The notes below the pieces were generated by a model. It was not told the DNA's origin. It saw nothing but the letters and a program-made list of their open reading frames with translations, and searched no databases. Of a DNA stretch of 64,000 nt, positions 117-21,516 are shown piece after piece. How positions within the stretch are numbered: position 1 is the first letter of the stretch; every line of letters starts with the position of its first letter. The position numbers and the translations under genes are program-made. This DNA comes from Luteibacter sp. 9135 (lineage in GTDB: Bacteria; Pseudomonadota; Gammaproteobacteria; Xanthomonadales; Rhodanobacteraceae): contig NZ_JQNB01000001.1 of the NCBI RefSeq assembly GCF_000745005.1, forward strand, positions 2,225,501 to 2,289,500. The letters are read 5' to 3'.

Positions 117-977
117 TTGAGCCGTATAAGTATCATCCTGCCCGCCAAGAACGAGGCGGCCGCCTTGAAAGACCTGCTTCCACGCCTGACGTCTGCCCAG
201 CCGGGGGCGGAGATCATCGTGGTGGACGACGGGTCGACGGATGAGACGCGTGCGGTGTGTGCGGCGGCGGGGGTTGTGTGTCTGTCGTCGCCGTATTCGA
301 TGGGGAATGGGGCGGCGATCAAGCGGGGGGCTAGGGCGGCTTCCGGGGATATCCTCGTTTTTATGGATGGGGATGGGCAGCATGATCCTGCGGATGTCCA
401 ACGCCTGCTAGCTCGCCTCGATCAGGGCTTCGACATGGTCGTGGGCGCGCGCGATTGGGAAAGCCAGGCGGGTGTGGGGCGAGGTGTGGCTAATACGGTC
501 TACAACTGGTTGGCCAGCAGGATGACCGGCCATGTCGTTGCCGATCTGACATCCGGGTTTCGAGTTGCGCGGGCGTTGCGGTTCCGCGAGTTTCTTCACC
601 TGCTCCCGAACGGATTTTCGTATCCGACCACAAGCACCATGGCTTTCTTTCGCAGCGCTTACGGCGTGGCTTACGAGCCGATCAAGGCCGGGCAGCGGCT
701 TGGGAAGAGCCACATCAAGCCGCTGAAGGATGGGATTCGCTTTCTGCTCATCATCTTCAAGATCGCGACACTGTATTCGCCCTTGAAGCTATTTTTTCCT
801 GCGAGCGCGCTGTTCTTTCTCTTGGGCTGCGCGAATTACGCGCGGACGTTCCTGGCCGAGGGGCGCCTCACGAACGGCAGTGCGCTGATGTGGAGCGCTG
901 CCGTGATCGTGTTCCTTATTGGCTTGGTCTCGGAACAGATCACTGCATTAACGTACCGACCTTTCGGGGATAAATGA
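117..977 (+). CDS. Polyprenyl-phosphate glycosyltransferase-like protein, family GT2
   Basis: Predicted family 2 glycosyltransferase of the DPM1/ArnC/GtrB type, which loads a sugar from a nucleotide donor onto polyprenyl phosphate at the cytoplasmic face. The GT-A domain (about residues 3-215) begins SIILPAKNEAAAL and has VVDDGSTDET and the metal-binding run MDGDGQHDP. Two hydrophobic segments follow near residues 223-243 and 255-275. The TTG start is preceded by GGGGAG about six bases upstream, while the ATG at 89 is in another frame. The stop overlaps the next start as ATGA, so this is the first of six tightly packed plus-strand genes. The sugar and the lipid acceptor are not known. An open frame ending at base 37 may be the tail of an upstream gene. 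Confidence 0.85.
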   Translation: MSRISIILPAKNEAAALKDLLPRLTSAQPGAEIIVVDDGSTDETRAVCAAAGVVCLSSPYSMGNGAAIKRGARAASGDILVFMDGDGQHDPADVQRLLARLDQGFDMVVGARDWESQAGVGRGVANTVYNWLASRMTGHVVADLTSGFRVARALRFREFLHLLPNGFSYPTTSTMAFFRSAYGVAYEPIKAGQRLGKSHIKPLKDGIRFLLIIFKIATLYSPLKLFFPASALFFLLGCANYARTFLAEGRLTNGSALMWSAAVIVFLIGLVSEQITALTYRPFGDK

Positions 978-2125
978 TGCCGCGCCGCCCCCGGCTTTTG
1001 CTGGTGACGCGCAACCTTCCGCCGCTACGCGGCGGAATGGAGCGGCTCAACGCGCAATTGGCTGTGGAAATGTCACTGGTCTACGATGTAACCGTGCTGG
1101 CGCCGAAAGGCAGCCATCAACTTGGTGAGGGAGTTACCTTGCGCACAAGCCCGATGGGTGGCCTCGCTGGCTTCCTATTGTGGGCAATGTTCACCTCCAT
1201 TTTAGAAGCAGTAACTCGGCGGCCTGCGTGGGTGTTAGGGGGAAGCGGCTTAGTGGCACCTGTTGTCTGGATAGCCGCACGACTGTCGCGAGCACGGGCT
1301 GCGCTCTATGTTCATGGGCTTGATCTTGTCGTCGATAATGCCGTTTATCGGGCTGGTTGGTTACCTTTCGTAAGGCGCGCGGACCGCATTATTGCTAATA
1401 GTCGAAACACAGCTGCCCTTGCGGTAGCTGTAGGCGTCCCCGCCTCGCACACGATTATCGTCAACCCTGGCACGTCGCTGCCCGAAGCCACGGTATCGCC
1501 CAAAGTAGCTGCGGCGTTCCGCGAGAAACACGGCTTTGTTGGAAGTAAGATCCTTCTATCGGTCGGGCGTCTCACAGCTCGTAAAGGTCTTGCTAACTTT
1601 ATCGATCATGTCTTGCCAGGCATTGTTCAAACTCACTCCCCTGCAATTCTCGTCGTGATTGGCGACGATGCCCAGGACGCACTCGCGGGCGGTGATACTT
1701 CGCAGCGATCTCAGGCGCGAGCCGCTGCTATCCGCCGTGGCCTGGATGACTGCGTACATTTTTTGGGTCCGGTAAACGAAGATGAGTTACTTGCAGCGTA
1801 TGCCGCGAGCGACGTCCATGTATTTCCCATACGTGATGTACGCGGCGATGTGGAAGGCTTCGGTATGGTCGCGATCGAAGCTGCTGCAAACGGCCTTCCC
1901 ACCGTAGCGACCGCCGTGGGTGGCGTGACCGATGCTGTTGCAGAAAATGTATCGGGCCATCTTGTGCCTTGCGATGATAACGTTGCCTTTATCCGAGCCG
2001 TGAGTGCCGTGCTTGATAAAGGTCGTGGCGCTTTTGAGACGAAGGCTCGCACTTTTGCGCTTGGGTTTGCATGGGATCGTTTCGGCAAGGGAGTGCGCAG
2101 CGCGTTGGAGGATGTCCATGACTGA
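974..2125 (+). CDS. Glycosyltransferase family 4
   Basis: Retaining GT-B glycosyltransferase (383 residues) expected to extend a glycan in the cytoplasm from a nucleotide-sugar donor. The N-terminal acceptor domain has the glycine-rich PLRGGMERL motif. The C-terminal donor domain has LSVGRLTARKG, and near residues 295-310 the EX7E-type stretch EGFGMVAIEAAANGLP that binds the donor in GT4 enzymes. It overlaps the preceding gene by four bases. The following methyltransferase starts inside its last codons, so translation is probably coupled. Donor and linkage cannot be read from sequence. Confidence 0.87.
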   Translation: MMPRRPRLLLVTRNLPPLRGGMERLNAQLAVEMSLVYDVTVLAPKGSHQLGEGVTLRTSPMGGLAGFLLWAMFTSILEAVTRRPAWVLGGSGLVAPVVWIAARLSRARAALYVHGLDLVVDNAVYRAGWLPFVRRADRIIANSRNTAALAVAVGVPASHTIIVNPGTSLPEATVSPKVAAAFREKHGFVGSKILLSVGRLTARKGLANFIDHVLPGIVQTHSPAILVVIGDDAQDALAGGDTSQRSQARAAAIRRGLDDCVHFLGPVNEDELLAAYAASDVHVFPIRDVRGDVEGFGMVAIEAAANGLPTVATAVGGVTDAVAENVSGHLVPCDDNVAFIRAVSAVLDKGRGAFETKARTFALGFAWDRFGKGVRSALEDVHD

Positions 2126-2861
2126 CGTATCGGGGCGTCGTGGGCACGCCGTGCGCGATCTTCCTTCGCGCCGACACAAGGGCGAAAAAATCGAGCGTTT
2201 ACTTGAGATGGATGATGCGTCGACCTACGACGTTCTCGAAGTGGGGACCGGATCCGGGGGTATTGCGCATTACTTTGCCACGCAGGCGCGCGCACGTTGC
2301 CGCGTGACCTCAGTGGACGTAGAAGATGCCCGGATGGTGTGTGACGGGTACACTTTTCGTCGTGTGGAATCCACCAAGCTGCCATTTCCCGAAGGTAGCT
2401 TCGATGTTGTGATTACGAATCACGTGATAGAACATGTCGGGGATAGGGTGGCCCAGGCTGAACACCTTGCAGAGATCCTGCGCGTCCTTCGCCCTGCTGG
2501 TGTTGTCTATCTAGCAGTGCCGAATCGTTGGATGCTGGTGGAACCGCATTACAAACTTGCATTCCTGAGCTGGCTGCCGCATGGCCTTCGTACGCCTTGG
2601 CTCAAGCTTTGGCGCAAGGGAACGTTTTACGATTGCGAGCCTCTGCAGCTTGGGGAGCTGGAGGCGCTTGCGCGTAATGCCGGGTTCTATCCGGCCAACA
2701 GATCGGCCTGTGCATTTCGGCTGACATTGGCCATAGAGGGCGCCAGCGGCAGTCTCGCGCGCCTCATCTCCTCGTTGCCCGATAGAGTGATTGACGGCCT
2801 CCGGCGGATTATCCCAACGCATATTTACATCCTCCGGCCTGTTGCGAGTAGTGACTCGTGA
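2118..2861 (+). CDS. Class I SAM-dependent methyltransferase
   Basis: Putative methyltransferase of about 247 residues in the glycan operon. Motif I is VLEVGTGSGG, followed by an acidic SVDVED strand end and the ITNHVIEHV stretch common in Methyltransf_11 proteins. The reading frame stays open upstream into the glycosyltransferase gene. The ATG at 2118 is preferred because TTGGAGG ends at 2111, seven bases before it; an ATG at 2112 is too close to that site. It probably methylates the sugar chain or its lipid-linked form, but this comes only from context. The stop overlaps the next GTG. Confidence 0.8.
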   Translation: MTDVSGRRGHAVRDLPSRRHKGEKIERLLEMDDASTYDVLEVGTGSGGIAHYFATQARARCRVTSVDVEDARMVCDGYTFRRVESTKLPFPEGSFDVVITNHVIEHVGDRVAQAEHLAEILRVLRPAGVVYLAVPNRWMLVEPHYKLAFLSWLPHGLRTPWLKLWRKGTFYDCEPLQLGELEALARNAGFYPANRSACAFRLTLAIEGASGSLARLISSLPDRVIDGLRRIIPTHIYILRPVASSDS

Positions 2862-3991
2862 CGAGGGGTGGCCACGAACAAGCCCATGGTTCTGAAGGTG
2901 CTAGCCACTGGACCGGGGGCTCGACCGTCCGAGTACATGCCTGTCCGGCATGTGGTAGCCGCGTGCGGGAAATCCACGCCTCTGATGTCTTCGATCATCT
3001 TGACCCTCGAAGAGCTGATTGCTGGAATGTCTGGCGTTGTTGTGCGTGCGAAAGCCTTTATCCCGACCCGCGCCCGTCCGATGAATCGATTGGGGCGGCA
3101 TACGCTGGCTACTACACCCATGCGGCCGACCCGGAGTCCAGCGGGCGAACCGGTCTTCGTGGTCGACCTGCCGCCTACGTAAACGACTATCTCAATCGCC
3201 GGTTCGGTGTTCATCTGACGCCAGCCCTCTGGCCTGGATACGCATTGCTTTCCTTGTTCGAGCCTTGGCGGTTGAAGCTGGACTATTTCGGTGCCCACCT
3301 GTTTCTCTCATCCGGGGCAAACCAGCGCCATGTTCTCGACGTGGGGTGTGGCAATGGTGTCTTTCTTCGACGGGCCATGTCATTGGGCTGGAAGGCAACG
3401 GGTCTGGATCCTGATGCTTCCGCCGTTGCCGCCGCCCGATTGCAGGGTCTGGACGTGCACTTGGGGTTCATCGATAGCGAAGCGGTTCATGTAGAACCTG
3501 TTTTCGACGCCATAGTGTTCCGTCACAGCATCGAGCACATGGTCGATATCCAGGCTAATCTGAATTGCGCTCGCCAACGGCTGCGACCTGGCGGAATGAT
3601 CTGGCTTGCATGGCCAAATCCGCAGGGACCTGGTGCAAGGTATTTTCGCGAATCGTGGCGCGGCTTGGAGGTGCCTCGACACCTATGTATTCCGAGCCGA
3701 GCTGCGATGATGCGCTTGCTGATAGATGCGGGGTTCGAGCGGCCAGTGCCTCGTCGGCGCGGGCAACATGCACGCGAGATCATACGTGAAAGCGCGGCGA
3801 TTGCTCTGCAACGCGGGGGCGCTCTTAATGAGAAGAGGGCGGCCGGTTCGAGTTGGGTCCGACGTTGGGCAAACTTCGTCGCGACGCTGGTCGCCGGAGC
3901 CGGCGAAGAGCTTGTCATGGTGGCGTACGCGCCTGTATCGGACCTCGGTAGTGAAACTGACCGTTTGCGTGAGAGTTCGGTAGATGGGTAG
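2858..3991 (+). CDS. Methyltransferase with N-terminal zinc ribbon
   Basis: Predicted SAM-dependent methyltransferase (377 residues). An N-terminal zinc-ribbon-like module has CPAC at residues 29-32 and CCAC at 61-64, then YAGYYTH. The Rossmann domain starts with VLDVGCGNGVFL near residue 160, and FRHSIEHM follows. This architecture is common among methyltransferases in surface-polysaccharide and secondary-metabolite clusters, where sugars are methylated. The GTG start overlaps the preceding stop as GTGA. The end overlaps the next glycosyltransferase by eight bases. Substrate unknown. Confidence 0.8.
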   Translation: MTRGGHEQAHGSEGASHWTGGSTVRVHACPACGSRVREIHASDVFDHLDPRRADCWNVWRCCACESLYPDPRPSDESIGAAYAGYYTHAADPESSGRTGLRGRPAAYVNDYLNRRFGVHLTPALWPGYALLSLFEPWRLKLDYFGAHLFLSSGANQRHVLDVGCGNGVFLRRAMSLGWKATGLDPDASAVAAARLQGLDVHLGFIDSEAVHVEPVFDAIVFRHSIEHMVDIQANLNCARQRLRPGGMIWLAWPNPQGPGARYFRESWRGLEVPRHLCIPSRAAMMRLLIDAGFERPVPRRRGQHAREIIRESAAIALQRGGALNEKRAAGSSWVRRWANFVATLVAGAGEELVMVAYAPVSDLGSETDRLRESSVDG

Positions 3992-5021
3992 TCGCTCACT
4001 CAGGGTTTGGCTACCTGCTCTTCGGACCCGAAGTGGCGCTGACGTCTTCACAATGCGCCTGGCTGATGGCCTTCTTCGTATGGGTCACAAGCCTATTGTC
4101 CAGTGGCTTTCTCATGAATGGGAATTTGCGAGCTGGATGTTGCGGCCACTGCGCATGCCAACTGGCATCGACATCATTCATGCATCTGCGGGCATCGGTC
4201 ACGCGTTCGCTAGACGGGGTGTACCTCTGCTAGTGACAGAGCACCAGTACGTTCGCCACCCTGCTTTTATCCCGTGGAGGAGCCGAGCGCAGGCGATCTA
4301 CCAGACGCTGGTGACGGGACCTGCATCCGACCGATCAATCCAACTAGCCGATGGCGTCACGACGGTAAGTCACCATGCTGCGAGTGCCATTTTTTCCGTA
4401 ACTGGGCGACGGGTCGAAGTCGTCTACAACTGGGTGGATACCGACCTTTTTCGCCCTTTGACTACGGGTGCGAAACCTTCCGATGAAGTGATTCGGCTGA
4501 TCTTTATCGGGAATCCGTCAGCATGGAAGGGTGTCGACATCCTTCCCGAACTAGCGGCGATGCTGGGAGAAGGCTTCGAGATTCATTGCATGGGCGGCCT
4601 CCGCAAGGCTTTTCCCTCTGAGTTTGGTGCGCACCGTGGAATCAAGCTGCTTCCAGGCAGGCCGGTCTCCGATATGCCCTCACTTTATAGAAAATACGAT
4701 ATTGCGTTGGTGCCTACTCGTTACGAAGCATTTGGCTACGTGGCCCTTGAAGCCATGGCGAGTGGGCTGCCCGTCGCCGGATTCAACACGACGGGTACGG
4801 CCGAGGTTTGCGTCAATGGAGAGACCGCCCTATTGGTCGCACGTGATGATGTGCCTGCTCTGGCGGAAAGCATACGGCGACTAAGGGACCCGGCGCTTCG
4901 CTCTGAGTTGGGCGCAGCGGGCCGCGGCCGCGCTGTCACCATGTTCAACGAGTCACGTAGTATCCAGGCTTACGTAAATATTTATCTATCGCTGCTAGGT
5001 GAGCGCGTTGACTGCAACTAG
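3984..5021 (+). CDS. Glycosyltransferase family 4
   Basis: Second GT-B glycosyltransferase of the operon (345 residues). The N-terminal domain carries the RSGADVFTMRLADGL acceptor-side motif. The C-terminal domain has GNPSAWKGVDILPELA, and then VPTRYEAFGYVALEAMASGL with the two glutamates of the EX7E donor-binding motif. It is less than 30 percent identical by eye to the first GT4 gene, so it probably adds a different sugar. The gene overlaps both neighbours (8 bases upstream, 23 downstream), which supports a single transcript. Confidence 0.86.
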   Translation: MGSRSLRVWLPALRTRSGADVFTMRLADGLLRMGHKPIVQWLSHEWEFASWMLRPLRMPTGIDIIHASAGIGHAFARRGVPLLVTEHQYVRHPAFIPWRSRAQAIYQTLVTGPASDRSIQLADGVTTVSHHAASAIFSVTGRRVEVVYNWVDTDLFRPLTTGAKPSDEVIRLIFIGNPSAWKGVDILPELAAMLGEGFEIHCMGGLRKAFPSEFGAHRGIKLLPGRPVSDMPSLYRKYDIALVPTRYEAFGYVALEAMASGLPVAGFNTTGTAEVCVNGETALLVARDDVPALAESIRRLRDPALRSELGAAGRGRAVTMFNESRSIQAYVNIYLSLLGERVDCN

Positions 5022-5877
5022 TCATGTGAAGGTGGTCGCAATCATCCTTAGCTACCGGGATGCCCCCCGTACTCAACGCTGCGTTCTATCGGCACTGGAT
5101 GAGGGAGTCGATGGCGTGGTTATTTGGGATAACTCCGACGATGGCGGTGAATCAGCGGGATCGATCGAAGTTTGCGATCCCCGCGTCGAACTAATTGTCA
5201 GTCCGAGAAATCTAGGCTTCGGCGCCGGTGTTAATGCAGCCCTGGCTTATATGCAAACGCGATGGCCGGGAGCGGCAGCGTTGCTACTCAATAATGATGC
5301 CACCCTGCGTCCAGGGGGGCTGTCTGACATGCTTGCACACTTGCGTGCTGATACCGTGGTGGCGCCAGGGATCAATCATGCGGGCGAGGCCGTGTTTCTG
5401 CGTTATATGCATCGATGCTCGGGCGCTCAACTTGTCCGGCCGATGACGGGTGCTTTTGCGTTCCCGAGCGGAGCTTGTCTCTTGCTTCCTCCTTCGCTTT
5501 CAGTAGGGCCGCTATTTGACGAAGCATTCTTCATGTACGGAGAAGATGTCGATCTCGGTTGGCGACTTCTTCGATCAAGGCATTGGCACGTTAAATCCAC
5601 GGGCACTGTACTTGTCGATCATGAAGTAGCGGCCAGTAGTGGAAGGCGTACGCACTTCTATGAAACGCATGTAGCTGCTTCCCATTGGTTACTTGCAACC
5701 CGCTTGGCAACCGGGCCCTTGGACCGTGTGTTTCTGAAGTTATGTAGAGGCATTTACTTGCTTGCGCGAGCACTGGTCCGATCCCTTCGCGAACATAGTG
5801 CGATGCCGTGGCGCGGGCTTTGGTCAGGCTACCGGCTGGCAGTCGTTCGAGATCGGGAGCACCGTCGCGGGTTGTAA
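4999..5877 (+). CDS. Glycosyltransferase family 2, rhamnosyltransferase-like
   Basis: GT-A fold glycosyltransferase (292 residues) resembling WbbL/RfbN-type rhamnosyltransferases. It shows VVAIILSYRD at the N terminus, SPRNLGFGAGVN, LLLNNDATL in place of a DXD motif, and MYGEDVDLGWRL near residue 180, the usual catalytic-base region of this group. A GTG start at 4999 gives a 23-base overlap with the upstream gene; TTG 5008 is also possible. Last gene of the plus-strand operon; it ends 24 bases before the convergent flippase gene. Rhamnose as donor is only a family-based guess. Confidence 0.83.
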   Translation: MSALTATSHVKVVAIILSYRDAPRTQRCVLSALDEGVDGVVIWDNSDDGGESAGSIEVCDPRVELIVSPRNLGFGAGVNAALAYMQTRWPGAAALLLNNDATLRPGGLSDMLAHLRADTVVAPGINHAGEAVFLRYMHRCSGAQLVRPMTGAFAFPSGACLLLPPSLSVGPLFDEAFFMYGEDVDLGWRLLRSRHWHVKSTGTVLVDHEVAASSGRRTHFYETHVAASHWLLATRLATGPLDRVFLKLCRGIYLLARALVRSLREHSAMPWRGLWSGYRLAVVRDREHRRGL

Positions 5878-5901
5878 TGACGGGATATGGGCTGCGACTA
5901 G

Positions 5902-7125
5902 CTAAGGATGAGCGCGGGCGACGAGGATCCAGCCGATGCCCGCCATCAGCATCTCAGCGGCTGCCAAGCCCAAGGACATTCCCCTAAGGCCTCCCGCTTC
6001 CGCACCAACTCCAAGAAAGATCACTAAGAAGCCTATTCCCGTAAGTTCAAACGCCATGCGGTGCATCGGTTTGCCCAAGGCTACAAGAATCGTTCCTGCG
6101 GCGAGACGAAGGCACATGAACGGCGCCGCGGCGGCCACCCACGGCATAATTAACGCAGTTTCAGTGAATCGTGGGCCAAGTAGGTGCGGCAGCAAGGATG
6201 AGCATGATACCAACACTAATCCGCTCGCTAATCCCCAACTTGTGCTGACAAGAGCAATGACCCGGATCAACCGTATTCCCTGCGCTTTCGGATTTGCGCC
6301 GTGTTGGAATAGTGCTTGCTGCGACGCCACCAGGACTCCGGTAACCGGGGTGATGGCTGCGTTTAGTACCCGCGCCGTAGCTGAGTAAATGCCCGCAGCA
6401 TGCTCACCTAAGAATCTGATGGCGAGCACCTTGTCGAGTTCGGCTGGGTTTGCCGCAACAACGTTCATGGCTGCATACGCGGATCCGCTACGCAGTTCGT
6501 GCCCTGAAGGCCATCGGGGGCGCCATGACAAATGGGTCGACCGCGATGTCATGACAGTACCCGCGAGCAATCCCAAGCCAGCGGCCGTTAAATGTAAGAT
6601 GACGAAGCCGCTTAAAGATATGTCAATGATTGCTGTTGTGCATATGACGGTGACGAAAAGGCGCATACCAAGCGGAAGCCACTGTATTAGCTGGCCCTTA
6701 GCCGCTTGGTGGCTAGCCTGCAGCGCGGCGTTGCAGGTCATCAGGATAGGCGTTACGAAAAGTTCGGTGGCGCCGATGATGAACAGAGCAGATGCTGAGA
6801 AGGCGTTCCCGCCTATGCGCGCTGCGGCAAGTGGGAAAAGCACGGAAAGTATGCTACTTAGCGCCAGCGTTAGTGGCCACGCGTAGCCTGTGACATCCTT
6901 TCCCGTTCCAGGAGTTCGTGCTTCTCGCGACATCAATACGAACCCGGCTCCTAGGCTGGGAATCAATGATGCGACCATCGCGAGCGACGCGGCAGCTGTG
7001 TACTGACCGAATACGGCAGGGCCCATCCAGCGCGTTAAAAGGATAAGGTTGCACGCCTGCGTCATAAGGCGGATGCCAAGCATCGCAGTGGTGTGGATGC
7101 TGCCGCGCGTTAGGGTGCCCGGCAT
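5902..7125 (-). CDS. Wzx-like polysaccharide/lipid-linked glycan flippase
   Basis: Integral membrane protein (407 residues) of the MOP/PST superfamily with about twelve hydrophobic segments. It is expected to flip an undecaprenyl-linked glycan across the inner membrane. The start of the chain, TLTRGSIHTTAMLGIRL, matches the first amphipathic turn and helix of Wzx proteins. The ATG at 7125 lies one base after the stop of the upstream gene; a GTG at 7164 would add 13 residues and overlap it. Neither has a strong Shine-Dalgarno. It is the last gene of the minus-strand block and meets the glycosyltransferase operon tail to tail, which fits a role in exporting that operon's product. Confidence 0.82.
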   Translation of the reverse strand: MPGTLTRGSIHTTAMLGIRLMTQACNLILLTRWMGPAVFGQYTAAASLAMVASLIPSLGAGFVLMSREARTPGTGKDVTGYAWPLTLALSSILSVLFPLAAARIGGNAFSASALFIIGATELFVTPILMTCNAALQASHQAAKGQLIQWLPLGMRLFVTVICTTAIIDISLSGFVILHLTAAGLGLLAGTVMTSRSTHLSWRPRWPSGHELRSGSAYAAMNVVAANPAELDKVLAIRFLGEHAAGIYSATARVLNAAITPVTGVLVASQQALFQHGANPKAQGIRLIRVIALVSTSWGLASGLVLVSCSSLLPHLLGPRFTETALIMPWVAAAAPFMCLRLAAGTILVALGKPMHRMAFELTGIGFLVIFLGVGAEAGGLRGMSLGLAAAEMLMAGIGWILVARAHP

Positions 7126-7126
7126 A

Positions 7127-9088
7127 TTACGGATGATCGTCGTAGGCCGAGCGGGTCTTGCCACTCTTCGACGAAATGAGCGCGGTCAACGATGCAATGT
7201 CTGGGGAGAGACGTCCCCCCAGATTATTAGCTTTGAGGATGGCTAGTTCTGTATTAGCGGTTTCGACGTCGCCACTGGCGACTGCCATCCGGCAAAGTAC
7301 CACGTGGTACGCCATCTCGGTGGGCGCCTTTTTCACTGCATCACGTTGCAGGGTAAGTCCCAGTAGCCGATCCTCCAGCGTATTCCAGGCAAAGCCAGCA
7401 TACATTGCAAGCATTCGTGCGCTGGGGTTCGGATGCCCCATGGCAGTAACGAACGCGTCAAGTAGGTCTGTTTCCTTGAACTTGCATGACCCGGTACGCA
7501 AGCAGTCAGCCAGTGAGCCGAGGGAGCTTTCGTCCTGAACTGTAGCAGGGCGTCTCTGAAGCTTCGTTCGAATGCTTCGCCACCAGGTGGGATCAACCGT
7601 CCTATCCATGCGCGAGTTAAGGAAGATGAGTGCCTGTTCTGGGAGTATCGAGGAACCTGGGAGGGACATCGCGCGTACTAATGGTGCGTAGGCGAGCGCC
7701 GTGAACGGCGATTCCTTCCGATACCCGCCAAGGATGATGTAAGTGCGGCCCAGTTCGTACTGAGCACGGGGCGAGTCGGGCGCCCGAATGGCAAGTTCCC
7801 TGGCCAGTGACAAATTGCTGTTCCAGGCCCGCGCCGTCGTTGCCGTGACCAATGTCGCAAGCCCAACCGTACTTGCCAGTACCACGGTCCGCACCAGTAC
7901 ACGCTGGGCGGTGTGGACGGATCGTTGGCAAACGGCCCTGGCGCCCGTTATCAAGGCGAGCAACGCGCCGAAGCTGGCGAAGTAATTGCGGTGCTCGTAA
8001 ACCAGTTCCAGCGGGAGCACCGTGGCGGTGAGTACATGCCCCATCAGAAACAACGCTATTCCCAGCGAGACGATAGGGGTACGGAAACGAACCTGGAAGC
8101 ATGTGGCAATCAGAAGTACGATCAATGCAAACGCGGGTAGCGTTGTCCATGGATGCCATGGACTAGTCGAGATGGCCAAGTCGTCGTAGTAAAAAGGCAG
8201 AGACGACGGAAGAGGAAGTACGATCGAGGAGAGGTATGAAGCGATAACGCGAGGCTCGGTCAGTAGACGCGTTCCCAAGCTGAAGTCGCGGCGGTCCCAT
8301 GTAACTGGATCAAATACGGTAGGTGCCAGCCATGAAGCGCCGACGACGAGAGGTATCGCGAAGATGACGATGAAAACGCCGATCAGCCGACGGTCGACGC
8401 CAGACCGTTGACGTCCACGCGCCCAGCGGAAAATTATGCACTCGATGAGGAATGCATAAGGCACCACCATCACGGCCGTCTCTTTTGCTAAAACACCTAG
8501 GGCGGCCGTAAAAAGTAGAGCGGCAATAGCGAAAAAAAGTCCATGCTGCCCGTCTTTCATCCGGCGCCGCGCGCGAACATAGCCAATCAGTCCGAGCAGT
8601 ACCGCCAGATTAGCCATGCTTTCCATGCGCTGGACGACATAAAGTACCGCCGTAAGGTTGATTGGTGCGAGTAACCAAGCTGCGGTAACCCACAGGGCAG
8701 TCTTATCGTCGCCTGGTCTCTGGTCATGTTCTGCGCCCAGCAACATTCGCGTCAGCAGGAATACCAGGACACCATTCAAAAGATGAATGACGATATTGGT
8801 TACCTTCATCGCCGCTGGATCAAGTCCTGTGAATAAATAATTTACGGCAAAGCTCAGTGAAGCCAGTGGCCGTTTGAATTCGCTGGCTGGGGATGAGAGT
8901 GCGGCGCTGATTAAGTTTGGCAAACTAGCCGACTCCGGCTGCACGCCCGCGTTGTCGACAATGTTGGGAAAATCGTCAAACACATATCCGCCGCTTACAC
9001 CCATGCCATAAACGGCGGCTGTGAGTGCAAGTATGCCGAGCAAGAAAAACCATCGGCAGGGTATAAGCATTCGCGGGGGCGTCATCAT
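7127..9088 (-). CDS. TMTC-like multi-spanning membrane protein with TPR-like C-terminal domain
   Basis: Protein of 653 residues with about ten hydrophobic helices in the first 420 residues and a soluble helical-repeat C-terminal third. The first extracytoplasmic loop holds YVFDDFPNI, an acidic pair typical of GT-C lipid-sugar transferases. Further shared points are FKRPLASLSF, HLLNG, LYVVQR and YEHRNYF. It is nearly the same length as its upstream neighbour and shares all these points, so the two are paralogues. The start overlaps the upstream stop as ATGA. The layout recalls eukaryotic TMTC O-mannosyltransferases and bacterial TPR membrane proteins found beside pilin genes. Glycan transfer to pilin is an inference. 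Confidence 0.72.
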   Translation of the reverse strand: MMTPPRMLIPCRWFFLLGILALTAAVYGMGVSGGYVFDDFPNIVDNAGVQPESASLPNLISAALSSPASEFKRPLASLSFAVNYLFTGLDPAAMKVTNIVIHLLNGVLVFLLTRMLLGAEHDQRPGDDKTALWVTAAWLLAPINLTAVLYVVQRMESMANLAVLLGLIGYVRARRRMKDGQHGLFFAIAALLFTAALGVLAKETAVMVVPYAFLIECIIFRWARGRQRSGVDRRLIGVFIVIFAIPLVVGASWLAPTVFDPVTWDRRDFSLGTRLLTEPRVIASYLSSIVLPLPSSLPFYYDDLAISTSPWHPWTTLPAFALIVLLIATCFQVRFRTPIVSLGIALFLMGHVLTATVLPLELVYEHRNYFASFGALLALITGARAVCQRSVHTAQRVLVRTVVLASTVGLATLVTATTARAWNSNLSLARELAIRAPDSPRAQYELGRTYIILGGYRKESPFTALAYAPLVRAMSLPGSSILPEQALIFLNSRMDRTVDPTWWRSIRTKLQRRPATVQDESSLGSLADCLRTGSCKFKETDLLDAFVTAMGHPNPSARMLAMYAGFAWNTLEDRLLGLTLQRDAVKKAPTEMAYHVVLCRMAVASGDVETANTELAILKANNLGGRLSPDIASLTALISSKSGKTRSAYDDHP

Positions 9089-11049
9089 GATCCAGATGCT
9101 ACGTGATGGGAAAGCTTCGCGCGAAGGTTGTTTAATTCATTTGTCCAGAACCCTTGCCTATCATCGAGCCGGTTGCGGAGCCACGACATTCCTGCGCCGA
9201 TAGAGGGGGGCGGTGGCTTTGGCAATGTGTCGAAGTATTCCAGATGTTGGAGTCCGAGCGAAGGCTCGCCAGCATCGCCCAATAGTGCAGCTTCATTCAG
9301 GGCTACTTCTGGTTTTGGATCTTCCAGCAGCGCTTTCCTGAAGTAGCTTGCTGCTCGTGTCGGAGCATTGGCCGCAAGCTCCACCACGCCAGATAGATGG
9401 GCGATGTCCTGCCTGCGGCCGGGCAAGATGTTGATTCGCGGATTGGCACTCGCCATGCTGATCCAGAGGCGTACAAGGTCGGGGTCAACGCCGGTGCATG
9501 AGCGCGCTTTCGCCCTGTCTATGGCGTGGGCCATCCACTGACTGAGTAGCGCTCCGGGATCGCGTTGCGTATGTTCCAGTGCTCTACCGACAACGCTGGC
9601 GTCGCCGGGTTGTAAGCTGCCCTCGGTACAATGTATATCGACAAGCGCAAAGGCGACTTGCGGCTCGTCGGGGAAAAGACGCGCGGCGGCTTCAATGCGT
9701 AATCTCGCAGCTTCGGGATGGCCGCTGACAGCTTCGATCTGGGCAGCATAAGCCTGGGCACGAGGTGACTCGGGCTGTGTCGAGGCCCAATACACCGCCT
9801 GCTTCGCCGGGTCGGCCCAGAGCAGGACATTTTGGTAAGTGAGGGTAGCTGCGGCGGCTAAGACAACAAGCGCGATCGCTCGGCGTGCCATATAGCTGTG
9901 GGTCGACGAAATAGCCAGCCCCAAGGGCCAGAACAGAAGCATCGAAGGCAGGTAGTTTCGATGTTCGAAATAAAGCTCGAGCGGGATGGCAGTGGATTCC
10001 ATGGCGTGGCCGACAAAGAAAAACAATACTGCCAGCGCTGCAGCTGGAGCCCGACGTCGACACATCCACGCGCCAGCTACCAGAGCTATGTAGGCAAGGA
10101 TGGCTGGCAACGTGAACCAAGGGTCGAGCAGGTTTCTGGCTGCCTGGTACTGGTCATGGAAGACACTGGCGGGTGACGGAACGACAAGGGCCAGTTGTCC
10201 GATGTACTCCATCAGGATGGATGGCTCCGTTATCAAACGCTGCGCAGCGGACCAGCCACGTACTGGGTTTACGCCCCGCAGCAACTCGTGCGTGCTTAGC
10301 GCAAGCAGGCCGACTGTGACCACGACAGTGCCAGGAATCGCTACGACCCATGTCCAGCGCTTGGCTCGCTGTGCGTTACGGTTGCTGGCCTTGAATAGTG
10401 CGGCTTCAGATATAAGGACCAAGGCGGGACAAAGCAGCCCGTTCGGCTTGCTTAATGCGGCCGCCGCGAAAAAGCACCAGATACCGAGTATGTGAGTCAG
10501 GCCTGCATTGCCTCCCCGTTCGATACGGGCACGCGCTCGGAGCCAGGTGAGCATAGCCAGAAGGCAGAACGTCGCCGGAAGCATGGCCTCGCGCTGCACG
10601 ACGTACAGCACGGTGGAGACGAGAAGTGGATGAAGCATCCAGGCGCCGGCGCCAAACAAGGCGGCGATCGTCGAGCGGCCTGCTTCGATGTTGATAGCCC
10701 TCCCCAAGTCACGCAGTAACAAGGCGAGGAGGCACCCGTTAAGCAGATGCAGTATCAGGTTGTCGCGTTTGAATGGATAGGATGGTGCCGGCCAGTCGCG
10801 CGCATCCACAAGGAATGACGCCACGGACATGGGGCGGCCCGTGGGGTCCGCGTTCCCGGAGACGAGATAACGTACAAGGGCTTGGCCGTTGTCGATAGGC
10901 CCCTGAGCACCCAGCGACGGCAGGTTCGCGAAGTCGTCGAACATAAAGGGCCCATGCAGGCCCGGCGCGTATATCAGCGCCGTTACGGCGAGCAAGAAGG
11001 CAAGGCCGGTGGCAAACCAGGCGATGGGATTCCGCGAAAGGTTGCGCAT
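9085..11049 (-). CDS. TMTC-like multi-spanning membrane protein with TPR-like C-terminal domain
   Basis: Paralogue of the next gene (654 residues). The N-terminal helix WFATGLAFLLAVTALIYA is followed by a loop with FMFDDFANLPSL, then RPMSVASF, HLLNG, LYVVQREAM and ELYFEHRNYLPSM; from about residue 430 a soluble helical domain begins. The reading frame is open upstream as far as 11292, but that part lies over a terminator and the end of the pilin gene. The ATG at 11049, just after the terminator, is therefore the start. Its position right behind pilA resembles that of pilO/tfpO pilin glycosyltransferase genes in Pseudomonas and Acinetobacter, though the sequence family is different. Confidence 0.72.
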   Translation of the reverse strand: MRNLSRNPIAWFATGLAFLLAVTALIYAPGLHGPFMFDDFANLPSLGAQGPIDNGQALVRYLVSGNADPTGRPMSVASFLVDARDWPAPSYPFKRDNLILHLLNGCLLALLLRDLGRAINIEAGRSTIAALFGAGAWMLHPLLVSTVLYVVQREAMLPATFCLLAMLTWLRARARIERGGNAGLTHILGIWCFFAAAALSKPNGLLCPALVLISEAALFKASNRNAQRAKRWTWVVAIPGTVVVTVGLLALSTHELLRGVNPVRGWSAAQRLITEPSILMEYIGQLALVVPSPASVFHDQYQAARNLLDPWFTLPAILAYIALVAGAWMCRRRAPAAALAVLFFFVGHAMESTAIPLELYFEHRNYLPSMLLFWPLGLAISSTHSYMARRAIALVVLAAAATLTYQNVLLWADPAKQAVYWASTQPESPRAQAYAAQIEAVSGHPEAARLRIEAAARLFPDEPQVAFALVDIHCTEGSLQPGDASVVGRALEHTQRDPGALLSQWMAHAIDRAKARSCTGVDPDLVRLWISMASANPRINILPGRRQDIAHLSGVVELAANAPTRAASYFRKALLEDPKPEVALNEAALLGDAGEPSLGLQHLEYFDTLPKPPPPSIGAGMSWLRNRLDDRQGFWTNELNNLRAKLSHHVASGS

Positions 11050-11060
11050 GCGGATACCGC

Positions 11061-11093
11061 AAAAAAAGAAGGAGCCGATTATCGGCTCCTTCT
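11061..11093 (-). terminator. Rho-independent terminator behind pilin 1
   Basis: Read leftwards, GAAGGAGCCGAT pairs with ATCGGCTCCTTC and is followed by seven T. It starts about 20 bases after the pilin stop and ends 12 bases before the ATG of the TMTC-like gene, so it should limit read-through from the strong pilin transcript into the membrane-protein genes. Confidence 0.9.
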
Positions 11094-11113
11094 CGTTGAT
11101 CGGTAAAGCGATA

Positions 11114-11557
11114 TTAGGAGCGGCAAGCTGTCGGCAGGTAAGCATCCGGCACATTGGTACCAGCGACCGACTTGCAGTTCCAGCTAATCGAGCCGCCCTG
11201 ATCATAAGCCGAAAGAACGACGACCGATGAAAGGATCTTGGAGTTGGCTTCCTTGCCGAACGTGGCAATGATCTTGCCCGCGGTGGTGCCAACGTTGACC
11301 TTCGTCACGTACTTGCCGTTGATCGAATCAGCAGGAGCGAGACCAGCCGACTTGTTTGCCGGCGGAAAACGTCCGGTATTGTTATAGAACTCGGAGACGG
11401 CCGTCTTTGCGCCATCAGCCAGGTTCATCCCTTCCGACACTTGGCTGCGAATGATGTAGTTCTGGTACTGCGGGATGGCGATGGCAGCCAGAATCGCGAT
11501 GATGGCGACCACGATCATCAGTTCGATGAGCGTGAAGCCCTTCTGGACGTTCTTCAT
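11114..11557 (-). CDS. pilA: Type IV pilin, major-pilin type
   Basis: Type IVa prepilin of 147 residues. A seven-residue leader MKNVQKG is cut before Phe8, giving mature [20 protein letters not shown] with the conserved Glu at +5 and a hydrophobic N-terminal helix that packs into the fibre core. The C-terminal disulfide loop is probably Cys128-Cys145. The last residue is a serine two positions after the second cysteine. GAGGA sits seven bases before the ATG. A sigma-54 promoter lies upstream at 11694-11709 and a terminator downstream. No pilB, pilC or pilD is nearby. The adjacent second pilin shares the N terminus and the spacing of the cysteines. Confidence 0.93.
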
Positions 11558-11693
11558 GGAAATTCCTCGTTACTGTTGACTAACCGAAAAAAGTGATGCC
11601 CCCTGAGCCCTAGCACCTTGCCCAGTCCCCCGGGTTCGGACGCCCCCTCACTTGCTTTTGGTCAGGAACGACCAGGAAGCTCGCCGCAAAGCC

Positions 11694-11709
11694 TGCATTG
11701 TCCATGCCA
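11694..11709 (-). promoter_or_regulatory. Sigma-54 (RpoN) promoter of pilin 1
   Basis: On the minus strand TGGCATGGACAATGCA keeps the invariant GG and GC ten bases apart and matches most of the -24/-12 consensus TGGCACG-N4-TTGCA. Transcription would start near 11683, giving a leader of roughly 125 bases before the ATG at 11557. RpoN control of pilA is established in Pseudomonas; here it is a sequence-based prediction. Confidence 0.72.
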
Positions 11710-11763
11710 TGGCCCCCGCGACCGGCGTATTTCCGCATAGACGCCGGTGCGACGATTGTGCCT

Positions 11764-11852
11764 CTTGTCACACTTATGGAGCAACTGGAAAATTTCGCGA
11801 ATTCAGTGAATTGGGATGGGTTGGAGGTGACGACTTTTGTCACAAGGTGACA
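11764..11852 (-). promoter_or_regulatory. TGTCAC boxes, possible PilR-type activator sites
   Basis: Upstream of the -24 element are a perfect palindrome TGTCAC-AAG-GTGACA at 11838-11852 and a further TTGTCACAC at 11765-11773. P. aeruginosa PilR binds repeats containing C/G-TGTC at a similar distance from the pilA promoter. Binding here is inferred. Confidence 0.4.
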
Positions 11853-11859
11853 CTTTGCG

Positions 11860-12300
11860 TCAATTTGCTCTGCAGGAAGTGGGCAAGTATCGGTCCGACA
11901 AGGTAGAACTGCATTTCCAGCCAATACTCCCAAAGTTGTCGATGGGAGAAAGGGTCAACGTTTGTCCCTGTAGATTCTTGTTACTTTCAGCACGGGCATA
12001 AGCAACCAGGATCTTGCCGGAGGTCAGCTTGACCGACGAAACATATTTGCCGCTTATTGAATCGGCCGCAGCGAGTCCGGCGGATTGATTCGAGGCGGGA
12101 AAACGGCCGGTATTATTTCGGAACTCCCATACGGCGGTCTTGCTGCCCGCAGCGGTCTCGAGACCTTCTGCAACTTGGCTGCGGATAAGATAATCCTGAT
12201 ACTGCGGTATCGCGATAGCGGCGAGAATCGCGATAATCGCGACGACAATCATTAATTCAATGAGCGTGAAGCCTGACGTGCGACGTTCGAAGTTGCTCAT
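11860..12300 (-). CDS. Type IV pilin, second copy
   Basis: Type IVa prepilin of 146 residues. The ten-residue leader [10 protein letters not shown] is cleaved before Phe11, followed by [20 protein letters not shown], identical over this helix to pilin 1. Cysteines at about 130 and 143 form the C-terminal loop; the chain ends CRAN, so it lacks the terminal serine of pilin 1. The frame remains open to a GTG at 12360 that has a fair Shine-Dalgarno, but the sigma-54 promoter at 12334-12350 lies between the two, so ATG 12300 is chosen. That leader is short and without a clear ribosome site. It may be a co-pilin or an alternative major pilin. Confidence 0.9.
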
Positions 12301-12333
12301 GGTAAGTGGCCATAGTGGGACAAGCCAACCAAA

Positions 12334-12350
12334 AGCACGCTTCGTACCAA
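12334..12350 (-). promoter_or_regulatory. Sigma-54 (RpoN) promoter of pilin 2
   Basis: On the minus strand TTGGTACGAAGCGTGCT has GG and GC separated by ten bases and matches TTGGCACG-N4-TTGCT at all but three positions. The predicted start is near 12323, giving a leader of about 23 bases before ATG 12300. It rules out the longer GTG start for this pilin. Confidence 0.72.
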
Positions 12351-12388
12351 TAAGGCTCACTGCATCTCCATTGCCGAATTGGTGCGGC

Positions 12389-13720
12389 CTACGTTTTGTC
12401 TATGGAGCGTTTATGCAGTTTCCGGCGCTGCAAGGTACGGCCGATGGCGTGCACCGCCACCGCGGCAAGTAGCCATTCGATGCCGCGATAGGGGGTTGAG
12501 TAGCGGGCATCGCATTGCAACGTTGTGAATGTCAAGGTGATGACTGTCGCTGTAACTGCAGCCAGCCCGAGCGCTGCCGGCATGTGTTTGCGGTCTACCG
12601 CTAAAACGACGACGCCGGCAGCGGCAAGCATGAGGATGATCGGTGATACGAAGAACAATGCGTCCGTGGTTATACGAAGCGCTCCAGTGCTCGATAGGGG
12701 CGAATAGTAAGTTGGAAAAACATATATATCTCCCATACCTATGCCGATCTGCCACCCCCATAGCTCGGCGGGTTTACGTAGGTACCACGTGGTGTACCTC
12801 AGGGGCTGAGACATCAGCCTTGCCGCCAGGACCGACAGCCCCTCAAGGCGGCCGCGATGGAAGGCTGCATATTCAGCATCCATTTTTTCCATCACGGCTT
12901 TGCTCGACGGGTCTCCCAGGAGAGCATCTCGCCACGCGTCGTGATACTCGGGCCACGACCCTTGTACGAGGTTCATCACGACTCTGTCGCCCGCTGATTG
13001 CCCGGCAGGCAGAGTCATGGCTCGGTACGTCCAAGCGGCCATGGGGAGTAGTGATGCCATCAGGAAAACGACCCACAATCTACGCGCGGGCGCGTTCTTC
13101 CAGAAAGCGATCACCCCAAAAATGAATGGAATAGGTGCGAATGTCGCATTGGTTAGCGCAGCCATGCCAAGGCATGCTCCTGCCGCAGCGAAGAGAGTCC
13201 AGTGGTTGCGTTGAGCAGCAAAATTCGTCAGCCACAGGCCTGTAGCAAAAAGGAAGCCCATAAGCGTTTCGCTTAGGAGGTAACCGGCTAGCGTTATCGT
13301 GTGCGGCCAGAATACGAGCCCAATGCCAACAGCGATCGCCGTGCGCGGCCCAAGCCACTGGCGTGCAAGCAATGCGTAAATGGCCACGGTAAGCCCTGAC
13401 AGCACGGCCTGGACCTCAAGGGTAGCGATATAAAAAACTTGTCCACGACCGAACATCGCGACAAGCAAGGCCAGAAACGCAGGGTAGCCCGGGTCGCGGA
13501 ACCCATCAGGAAGCGGCGATCCTCCCGGTGGCGCAAGCGAGAAAACATGGTGATCGACAAGGTTTAGTGCGTATGCGAAATACTGGATCGTGTCCCCGCG
13601 GAGCGGATGGTCGACGACCGCCGTGTGTACGTAATAAAGGCGTACCGCGATGGCCGCCGCTGCAACCAGAACAAACATGGCGAACTGAAAGCGTGTCCAT
13701 CGCGCCGTGTCACTTTTCAT
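12389..13720 (-). CDS. GT39-like (ArnT/PMT-type) membrane glycosyltransferase
   Basis: Polytopic protein of 443 residues resembling dolichyl/undecaprenyl-phosphate-sugar transferases of the GT-C superfamily. The first periplasmic loop has [14 protein letters not shown] with the acidic residue expected to act in catalysis, then [13 protein letters not shown], as in ArnT and PMT proteins. About eleven hydrophobic helices follow, with a short charged C-terminal tail. The frame is open further upstream, but ATG 13720 overlaps the preceding stop as ATGA and is the natural start. Together with the upstream paralogue it could add sugars from polyprenyl-phosphate donors to a glycan or directly to pilin. 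It ends 89 bases before the second pilin. Confidence 0.75.
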
Positions 13721-15078
13721 CGATTCAATACCGGTAGTCGAGGGTTGCGCTTTCTTGCGTACTGGACGGCCGCCCACACGGTGACGCATGCGAGAGAGAT
13801 TTCCGCCGTGCGGTAAGGGATCGAGTAGCGAGAGTCGGACTGCAATATCCAATAGACCAAGGTGACCCATGCACAACTAACAGCGAGGAACAACAATTCG
13901 GCGGGCGAGCGGCGATTCGACATGACAAGTAACAATCCGGCCAAAGCGGCTATCGCGAGGACTCCGTTTAGCATGTACGCAATTGCCTCAGTTGCTCGCA
14001 TGAACGGGTTTGTGATGTAGGGTGAATGGCGAGTGGGATATGCGTAGATATCACCGGCTCCGAGCCCAATTTCCCATCCCCAAAGAAGAGCGGGCTTTCT
14101 CAGGTACCACATTGCATACGCCCAAGGGGTCCTGCTCATTCTGTCCGCCATAACCCTGAGGCCAAGGACGCGATCAGCGCGCAAGATCGCAATTTCATCG
14201 GAAATAGCATCCATCGTCTGCATGCCTACGGGATCGTGATGCCCCCATAGTTGTGCGGCCGCGTGATACGTAGGCCAAGAACCTTGCACAAGGTTGATGT
14301 CTGCCCGCAGTGATGCGGATGTCGCACCGTGGATCAAACTTCCGCGAATATTCCATGCAAGGAGCGGCATGAGCGTAATGGCGGCTAGCAATAGCAAGTT
14401 GCGCCACGGCATCGACTTCTTCCAGGCAAGGGTAATCACTAGTGGAAAAATGAGAGGTGCGAGCACAGCATTCGTAAGTGCGGCGGCAGCGAGTGAAAGG
14501 CCTGCGACCACCGTCCATGCCTTTGAGACGCGGCGCGACGCTTCTGCGAGAGCGAGTGCTGCAAGTGCGCAGCAAAGTGCTGTGAGGTTTTCGGTCAGCA
14601 CATAGGCCGTTATGCTCACAAGATGAGGCCAAAACGCCATGACAATTGCGGCGAAGGCGAGCAACCATGTGGGAAATGCGTGGCGCATCGCCAGAACTGC
14701 AAATGTGACTGTGGCGCCGCCGAGAAGGGCATGACTCAGTAGCACGAATGCGTACCACTGGTCGTAATTGCTGGTTGCCCACATGAAGAGGGCGAGGTAG
14801 GTAGGATAGGCGGGGTCACGGTAGCTGTCGGACAATGGATGGGCCGTACCCGCGATATCGCCTGAAAAAAGTCCGTGATGAACTAAGTTCCACGCGTAAC
14901 GATAGTACTCTGAGGCGTCGCCCCAACCACCCGCGTCGTATAGGGGGGCCATGACCTGAGCCCTTGTGACGAAGTACCATCGAATGAGCAAAGCCAGCAG
15001 GCCACCGAGCAGGGCGACCCATACCGCGGCCCTGCTCGAAGTGACCTGCGGGGTCGACAACAAGCTTTCCTTGAACAT
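13717..15078 (-). CDS. GT39-like (ArnT/PMT-type) membrane glycosyltransferase
   Basis: Paralogue of the following gene (453 residues). The chain starts MFKESLLSTPQ, has a first helix WVALLGGLLALLIRWYFV, and the loop GGWGDASEYYRYAWNLVHHG with an acidic residue matching that of the paralogue, then SYRDPAYPTYLALF. GGGGG lies four to nine bases before the ATG at 15078; the frame is open further upstream but that part is not conserved in style. It is the promoter-proximal gene of the minus-strand block and is divergent from the S9 peptidase. Substrate not determinable. Confidence 0.75.
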   Translation of the reverse strand: MFKESLLSTPQVTSSRAAVWVALLGGLLALLIRWYFVTRAQVMAPLYDAGGWGDASEYYRYAWNLVHHGLFSGDIAGTAHPLSDSYRDPAYPTYLALFMWATSNYDQWYAFVLLSHALLGGATVTFAVLAMRHAFPTWLLAFAAIVMAFWPHLVSITAYVLTENLTALCCALAALALAEASRRVSKAWTVVAGLSLAAAALTNAVLAPLIFPLVITLAWKKSMPWRNLLLLAAITLMPLLAWNIRGSLIHGATSASLRADINLVQGSWPTYHAAAQLWGHHDPVGMQTMDAISDEIAILRADRVLGLRVMADRMSRTPWAYAMWYLRKPALLWGWEIGLGAGDIYAYPTRHSPYITNPFMRATEAIAYMLNGVLAIAALAGLLLVMSNRRSPAELLFLAVSCAWVTLVYWILQSDSRYSIPYRTAEISLACVTVWAAVQYARKRNPRLPVLNR

Positions 15079-19148: not shown

Positions 19149-19314
19149 GGTTTTGCGGGCCTTTTGACTGGAAGTGATTAGTGCCTGAGCATATGCCCGG
19201 TCACAACCGAAGTGCAGGGCTTTTCCGTTATCGGCAGAATCGGGAAGCTTTGGATGCCTTTGAGGCAGTGACTCCCAGCTTTTTATGGAATTAATTGATG
19301 AATGAAAGAGCATT

Positions 19315-19857
19315 ATGAAGGGTCAAATGAAACCGGGTAGCGATAACTATCTGATGCTGAAATGGGTTAGGCTTGTATCCATATGCCTGATTGTCACACT
19401 TGCATCTGTGGCAGCTGTCTTCAGTTTGCTCGCGCTTACGGTTGGCGCTGAATTCTGGGTGTCACCGCTAATTTCAACGTTTGCATGGCTGCCGCTCCAT
19501 CGACTTTCGAGTGGTTCTGAGTTCGGCACCGCCGGCTTGGTGAATGCCCTTTTTAGCGCCTTTGCAGTTCTGCCCGCTTTCACTGGAAGCGTCGCGCACA
19601 TAATGCTGACATATCGACCGAAGTGGTGTGCCCCAGTCGAACTGCGGACAAGGGCTAAAGGAATTATTGGATCGATGGTTTTGATTTCGATCCCAATCTT
19701 GTTGCTCATCACATGGAATGGCGGAGACGTTCGCATCGTCAAATTTGGATCTTCGCTGTTGTGCATGGTGCTTCTGGGATGGGCTCCTTATGCCTTTTTT
19801 GGAGCCATTTTTGCATACGGAACTGTCGGTCTGTGGAAATCCATTACGAATGATTGA
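19315..19857 (+). CDS. Hypothetical four-helix membrane protein
   Basis: No family recognised. The 180-residue product has four hydrophobic segments near residues 18-41, 69-99, 114-132 and 146-172, with short loops and no obvious catalytic motif; a Cys at about 104 and the loop RTRAKG are the only polar landmarks. The base composition is more A+T-rich than the flanking genes, and the gene is isolated between a divergent kinase and a 474-base gap. A second ATG at 19327 follows GAAGGG and could be the real start. It looks like acquired DNA, but no mobility gene or repeat borders it. Confidence 0.6.
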   Translation: MKGQMKPGSDNYLMLKWVRLVSICLIVTLASVAAVFSLLALTVGAEFWVSPLISTFAWLPLHRLSSGSEFGTAGLVNALFSAFAVLPAFTGSVAHIMLTYRPKWCAPVELRTRAKGIIGSMVLISIPILLLITWNGGDVRIVKFGSSLLCMVLLGWAPYAFFGAIFAYGTVGLWKSITND

Positions 19858-21456: not shown

Positions 21457-21516
21457 GTCGTGTGGTTCTCCGATAAAGTCGGTTGGGGCGTCGTGCGACG
21501 CAGGCGAGGCGAGGGC

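Follow-up and report, generated by a model that had tools for sequence, protein, structure and literature searches.

A stretch of 64,000 nucleotides from Luteibacter sp. 9135 (contig NZ_JQNB01000001.1, positions 2,225,501 to 2,289,500; the window, from whose first base the coordinates below are counted) carries at its left end a locus that probably glycosylates the type IV pilin of this bacterium, with two TMTC-like proteins acting as pilin-dedicated glycosyltransferases. That the glycan is an oligosaccharide built on a monophosphate carrier is, in our judgment, an evenly balanced proposition. A broader proposal is more tentative still: TMTC-like proteins may constitute a large family, so far undescribed, that O-glycosylates bacterial pilins specifically and is distinct from the WaaL-type ligases TfpO, TfpM and PglL. 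Together with an AglJ/DPM-type GT2 it would form a bacterial counterpart of DPM and TMTC, and in Luteibacter it would handle whole oligosaccharides on polyprenyl monophosphate, as in haloarchaea.

The genome is a single 4.49-Mb contig, in which pilB, pilC and pilD are located directly to the left of the window on the minus strand, with the end of pilB 57 bases before window base 1, and the locus is therefore the type IV pilus locus of Luteibacter. After pilB come a GT2 gene and a glycan cassette on the plus strand, then the flippase, TMTC-A, TMTC-B, pilin 1, pilin 2 and two PMT-like genes, all on the minus strand, and an S9 peptidase gene on the plus strand. The GC content drops to 54-61% within the island from mostly 62-70% in its surroundings. 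A sequence-only reading of positions 117-15078 had listed one polyprenyl-phosphate-type GT2 and three further glycosyltransferases, two methyltransferases, a flippase, two TMTC-like and two GT39-like proteins and two pilins, and this set was confirmed by open reading frames (ORFs), Pfam and AlphaFold models. The same reading took the region for a pilin glycosylation island with a lipid-linked glycan route and two paralogous membrane protein pairs, one possibly building and the other transferring the glycan; the first two parts of this interpretation are supported, but the two pairs are not equivalent.

TMTC-like proteins and their pilins

TMTC-A (7127..9088, minus strand) combines a GT-C membrane domain with a C-terminal TPR domain. 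In its AlphaFold model (pLDDT 93.1) the GT-C fold spans residues ~3-450 and the TPR part ~424-643, i.e., the succession of GT-C fold and TPR repeats by which TMTC enzymes of family GT105 are recognized, and its best structural matches include OST, AglB and PglB. Its pilin-proximal paralogue TMTC-B (9085..11049, minus strand, start ATG 11049 taken from the translation) shares 21-23% identity with it. Neither protein matched a Pfam transmembrane family. The TMTC-B sequence gave one weak match in the PDB, to LpoP, and the best 60 of 209 PDB matches of the TMTC-like profile all fell in the C-terminal TPR part, with no GT-C enzyme among them. At an E-value of 0.01, TPR_19 was matched by 29 of 61 TMTC-like members, and of the 14 Pfam families with a match in at least one member, none was DUF1736 (PF08409). 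We compared the same 61 sequences with the seven TMTC motifs, M1-M7, of PMC7801869. The DD of M1, the R of M2, the R of M3, the K of M4 and the Y of M7 are present in 61/61 sequences. M2 also retains its P (59/61), the remainder of this motif not being kept; in M3 an acid is found at position 156 in 41/61, the E of M4 in 46/61, the D of M5, without the W, in 60/61, the first P of M6 in 51/61 and the E of M7, where R is shifted by one, in 59/61.

Pilin 1 (11114..11557) and pilin 2 (11860..12300), both on the minus strand and 63% identical, each carry N_methyl and Pilin (PF00114) domains, which makes them type IVa pilins, and both have a Ser at the position of Neisseria PilE Ser63 (NKSAGL and NQSAGL, respectively). 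Another pilin-like match of this genome (C1:2785270-2785659, 44% identity to pilin 1) is more than 500 kb away. A pilin search in phages gave no match. Between pilin 1 and TMTC-B there is a 13-pair terminator-like hairpin on the minus strand (11094-11066). Our Luteibacter set comprises 22 genomes with a pilB match, the window's included, and the TMTC contig of the draft genome G012, i.e., 23 loci, and the hairpin occupies the same place in 20 of 22 loci, being weak in G021 (counted without a shuffled control). An attenuating terminator between a major pilin gene and accessory genes is known in another system, according to PMC11841053, and the hairpin after pilin 1 is likely an attenuator.

The association of TMTC-like genes with pilins is maintained well beyond this strain. 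Two copies are present in 22/23 Luteibacter genomes, and all matches of this genus lie at most ~19 kb from pilB or, in G012, which has no pilB match, beside a pilin gene. A profile search (E ≤ 1e-10, weak matches included) found TMTC-like proteins in 72/78 genomes of the same family and in 65/121 of the order sample; in the class sample (E ≤ 1e-40, scoring up to 4 candidates from each genome) they are present in 82/274 genomes and 68/222 gammaproteobacterial genera. A pilin gene is found within 3 kb of the TMTC-like gene in 72/79 order and family loci, and within 1 kb in 70/80 named loci (the best 80 of at least 592 confirmed relatives) and 22/29 class loci, which include only ~1.5 kb of flank. 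Since the named and unnamed sets share genomes, these three counts are not independent. L101 and L117 overlap in one genome, and L154 and L201 are the same contig with the same map; one of 80 candidate places (G128) was dropped as overlapping another, and the window's own locus (L220) is excluded from the 29 class loci. Pairs located away from pilins had been named by the sequence-only reading as a refutation; these counts do not refute it, although exceptions exist. Among the 24 loci without a near pilin, 8 have less than 700 bases upstream and 8 have 0.7-1.7 kb; a pilin is 3.6 kb off in L106 and 1.4 kb off in L211, L239 encodes a prepilin-like protein that belongs to a different type, and in L090, L136, L137, L138, L139 and L181 no pilin was seen in the at least 2.8 kb upstream.

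Some loci (L149, L101, L151 and Luteibacter G002, G014 and G019) alternate pilin-TMTC-pilin-TMTC, each TMTC-like gene having its own upstream pilin. Single stops interrupt the TMTC-like matches of G038, G054, G066, G076 and G077, and frames are split in other genomes; these are possibly pseudogenes, sequencing errors or on/off switching. A TfpO-type ligase was considered as a replacement of the TMTC-like gene in 12 genomes with no or weak TMTC-like match. PF00114 pilins occur in 10 and Wzy_C in 11 of them, and the two are never adjacent, the nearest being ~9 kb apart in the order-level genomes G095 and G130, which have no strong TMTC-like match, so there is no sign of such a displacement.

Within Luteibacter, the TMTC-like proteins and the pilin differ much more between genomes than their neighbors do, mean protein distances being 0.50 for TMTC-A, 0.62 for TMTC-B and 0.39 for the pilin vs 0.157 for GT2, 0.147 for S9 and 0.145 for PilB. 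The Mantel correlation with pilin distances in 21 genomes is 0.873 for TMTC-B, 0.503 for TMTC-A, 0.313 for GT2, 0.088 for S9 and 0.020 for PilB (the draft G012 is excluded here and from the tree below, as is G005 because its S9 gene is cut). The partial correlation of TMTC-B given TMTC-A is 0.826, and that of TMTC-A given TMTC-B is -0.07. TMTC-B exists in two types, B1 and B2, with identity to the window's TMTC-B of at least 0.43 and at most 0.29, respectively, and the type of the adjacent pilin agrees in 21/21 genomes. On the PilB+S9 tree TMTC-B type and pilin type change 4 times each; on supported branches there are 3 independent pairs, and these agree throughout but are too few for significance (p 0.25).

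Pilins of the B1 type have a Ser that aligns with a Neisseria PilE Ser, numbered Ser63 by hand count, and Ser63 is the conserved glycosylation site of class I Neisseria pilins (PMC4569582). Among 165 labelled TMTC-like sequences (stretches below 450 aa and duplicates excluded), one clade of 60, chosen after the labels were seen, holds 50/59 Ser pilins, and the Ser label changes 16 times on the TMTC-like tree vs a mean of 48.3 in 300 shuffles (minimum 38). Two considerations weigh against reading these patterns as enzyme-substrate matching. Few events may be behind the 60-member Ser clade, and some of the covariation could be due to gene linkage, a real confound since TMTC-B adjoins the pilin. 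TMTC-A shows a small effect with respect to the flippase class (delta 0.025, p 0.0025; p 0.069 for TMTC-B); because TMTC-A adjoins the flippase, linkage could cause this effect, and we do not use it as functional evidence.

We infer from fold, residues and linkage that the TMTC-like GT-C/TPR proteins move the glycan from polyprenyl phosphate to Ser/Thr of the pilin. TMTC-B would be matched to its pilin, the B1 type probably acting at the Neisseria Ser63 position, and TMTC-A would be a second, less pilin-matched partner serving either a second site or a PMT-style heterodimer.

The glycan cassette and its proposed lipid carrier

The first gene of the window (120..977, plus strand; cluster c5) encodes a DPM/AglJ-like GT2, of the type that synthesizes polyprenyl-phosphate sugars, which has hydrophobic segments at its C-terminus. 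Its best NCBIfam relative is AglJ (E 3e-29), and its 102 bits are below the cut-off of 325 for the AglJ equivalog TIGR04182; its PDB relatives are ArnC and dolichol-P-mannose synthase. This GT2 is present in 22/22 Luteibacter pil loci with pilB, as the first gene after pilB in 16; in the other 6, an MBOAT gene and a second gene, the representative of which lacks a Pfam match, come before it. The other border is the S9 prolyl-oligopeptidase-family peptidase (15250..17343, plus strand), found in 23/23 loci, which we regard as a conserved right border and not as part of the function.

Between these ends the glycan genes vary from genome to genome. In the window, Pfam assigns a GT4 glycosyltransferase (974..2125), two SAM methyltransferases (2106..2861 and 2858..3991), a second GT4 (3984..5021) and a GT2 (4999..5877), all on the plus strand, followed by a PST/Wzx-type flippase (Polysacc_synt; 5902..7164, minus strand), the start codon of which is uncertain, as GTG 7164 overlaps the next gene. 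In the 20 representatives scanned with Pfam, the cassettes contain GT2/GT4 enzymes, methyltransferases, an epimerase, a DegT aminotransferase, a PglD-like acyltransferase, FkbM, an IspD/SDR protein and glycerophosphotransferase-like proteins. In 21/22 loci, the exception being G020, there is a PST flippase, which belongs to one of four clusters (defined with a 60-bit link, with Pfam run on one member per cluster). Such variation may bear on pilus-phage interaction and on surface variation.

Judging from these families, the AglJ/DPM-like GT2 would load the first sugar onto polyprenyl phosphate, the GT2/GT4 enzymes and methyltransferases of the Luteibacter cassette would extend and decorate the glycan, and the PST flippase would turn it to the periplasm. 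A sizeable though lesser probability belongs to a scenario in which pilin is indeed glycosylated but the glycan is assembled on polyprenyl diphosphate by WecA or a PF02397 enzyme encoded elsewhere, with the GT2 only supplying monosaccharide donors. Initiating-type enzymes of PF00953 and PF02397 as well as PF04932 ligases/polymerases occur in all 23 Luteibacter genomes, none near pilB, and the similarity of the TMTC-A model to OST, AglB and PglB also speaks for a diphosphate. The locus itself yielded no initiating phosphoglycosyltransferase. Against the diphosphate scenario, the GT2 accompanies every pil locus with pilB and, in other bacteria, directly adjoins the TMTC-like gene in 17/29 class, 12/79 order and 4/80 named loci (0/23 in Luteibacter). 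Pilin, TMTC-like and GT2 genes form a trio at 15 class, 11 order and no named or Luteibacter loci, and two trio loci viewed more widely, L113 and L120, have no other glycosyltransferase among 10 proteins scanned, a subset of the ORFs there. Assembly on a monophosphate is the version that we prefer.

Near the L113 and L120 trios there are also an LPG_synthase_TM protein, a possible candidate flippase, and sulfotransferase-family genes (L113 6884-7753, L120 6765-7727), and the pilin glycans made there may be sulfated.

PMT/ArnT-like proteins and other explanations

The two PMT/ArnT-like (GT39-like) proteins are encoded on the minus strand at 12389..13720 (protein 1, start ATG taken from the translation, assigned through PMT_2 and a family alignment) and 13717..15078 (protein 2, with a 4-base overlap with the next gene). 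Their PMT_2 scores, 18.7 bits (E 0.0021) and 21.3 bits (E 0.00033), are below the Pfam gathering cut-off of 26.1, and the GT39-like sequence used as query gave only weak, unrelated-looking matches in the PDB. The AlphaFold model of protein 2 has a GT-C fold of the ArnT/PMT type. With one member of each pair modelled, TMTC-A and PMT-like 2, the labels given from sequence are right at the level of fold, and to speak of paralogous pairs is fair, as the GT39-like proteins are 34-38% identical among themselves and the two TMTC proteins are related at the level given above. The two families are not shown to be close to each other, since hhalign of their profiles gave a probability of only 33%. In Luteibacter neither pair strays from the pil locus, and the refuting condition of the sequence-only reading did not arise there: all 24 GT39-like matches are within ~22 kb of pilB. 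The two pairs are not equivalent. The TMTC-like pair is core and pilin-matched, whereas GT39-like genes are optional, being present in 15/23 genomes in 0-4 copies. G009 and G022 have an extra GT39-like gene beyond the S9 peptidase. Where present, the ArnT/PMT-like proteins might add further sugars from polyprenyl-phosphate monosaccharides.

It is possible but unlikely that the roles are reversed and the PMT/ArnT-like proteins glycosylate the pilin, while the TMTC-like ones act on the glycan in the periplasm, building or trimming it. The GT-C enzyme TfpW modifies the P. aeruginosa group IV pilin with which it is associated (PMC11841053); PMT-like 2 has a GT-C fold too, the PMT-like genes directly precede the pilins and all their matches in the genus are in the pil locus. 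Yet they are missing in 8/23 Luteibacter genomes, whereas the TMTC-like pair is constant in the genus. The gene that comes after the pilin terminator is TMTC-B, which among the proteins compared (TMTC-A, TMTC-B, GT2, S9 and PilB) is the one that tracks the pilin sequence.

An O-antigen or exopolysaccharide locus that merely happens to be located between pilB and the pilins is very improbable: with conserved ends and a variable interior in which glycosyltransferases, methyltransferases, DegT, epimerase, acyltransferases and PST flippases occur, the region does resemble an O-antigen locus, but Wzy_C (PF04932) and Bac_transf (PF02397) had no match near pilB in any of the 22 genomes with pilB, and throughout Gammaproteobacteria most loci keep TMTC-like genes and pilins together. 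Hardly more credible is the idea that TMTC-like proteins are non-enzymatic pilin assembly or stability factors in a TfpY-like role, with TPR as in PilF/PilW, for although PilF and PilW are among the many TPR proteins that the TPR domain of TMTC-A matches and TMTC-B has the position of an accessory gene after the pilin terminator, the GT-C catalytic-type residues are near-strictly conserved in the 61 sequences and a sugar-lipid-synthase-type GT2 is the direct neighbor in the 17/29 class and 12/79 order loci given above.

To the right of the S9 peptidase gene, window positions 17460-19313 encode one protein that combines a Dak1 with a Dak2 domain (dihydroxyacetone kinase type). The ORF at 19315-19857 has no Pfam match, gives the impression of a membrane protein and lies where the GC content of the window is at its lowest (51% over a kilobase). 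Two successive minus-strand ORFs at 20332-22338 also lack Pfam matches; in the second, an HRFDAE stretch is followed by a CPVC motif, and this protein, by impression only, is loosely deaminase-like.

Comparison with known systems

Enzymes that glycosylate pilins and whose genes accompany the pilin gene are already known, the GT-C enzyme TfpW among them; a TMTC-like enzyme in this role would be new and was not found in print. The literature examined (titles and abstract openings, with subscription papers and preprints outside the scope) contained no link of TMTC-like or TPR-bearing GT-C proteins to pilins.

TfpO/PilO, TfpM, PglL and PglS all have WaaL-like/O-antigen-ligase domains, and the genes of TfpO, TfpM and PglS frequently lie close to those of their targets (PMC12645811). 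They O-glycosylate pilins, as we propose here, but no Wzy_C/WaaL-type domain was present among the scanned proteins of the Luteibacter locus, in agreement with the sequence-only reading, which had seen no such ligase beside the pilins. If our proposal is correct, the GT-C/TPR family, given its spread over the gammaproteobacterial genera sampled, would be a second major route beside the WaaL-type pilin O-oligosaccharyltransferases covered in that review.

TfpW is similar in being a GT-C enzyme associated with its pilin (PMC11841053). Unlike in that system, an oligosaccharide cassette and a flippase are present at the Luteibacter locus. TfpW uses a lipid-monophosphate sugar donor, as proposed here, and is not known to have a TPR tail.

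The list of parts resembles haloarchaeal N-glycosylation. In the AglJ-AglG/I/E-AglR/Agl15-AglB-AglS pathway, as described in PMC3871713, AglJ and further glycosyltransferases build on one dolichol phosphate, a methyltransferase acts, the glycan is flipped and transferred by AglB of the STT3 family, and the final sugar comes from a second lipid-P-sugar. The relationship of the window's GT2 to AglJ fits this likeness. AglB, however, links its glycan to Asn, whereas in Luteibacter we infer pilin Ser/Thr and a TMTC-like enzyme.

Finally, the eukaryotic TMTC1-4 (CAZy GT105), which use dolichol-P-mannose, share with the bacterial proteins the GT-C membrane domain with a TPR tail and, in corresponding positions, the residues DD, R-P, R, K-E, D and E...Y, and a DPM-type synthase GT2 is encoded at the locus described here. 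The bacterial members differ in the absence of a DUF1736 Pfam match (n=61), in having EHRNY vs ERxxY and in their linkage to pilins. If the proposed relationship is true, they would provide bacterial models for TMTC enzymes and pilin-matched transferases for glycan engineering.

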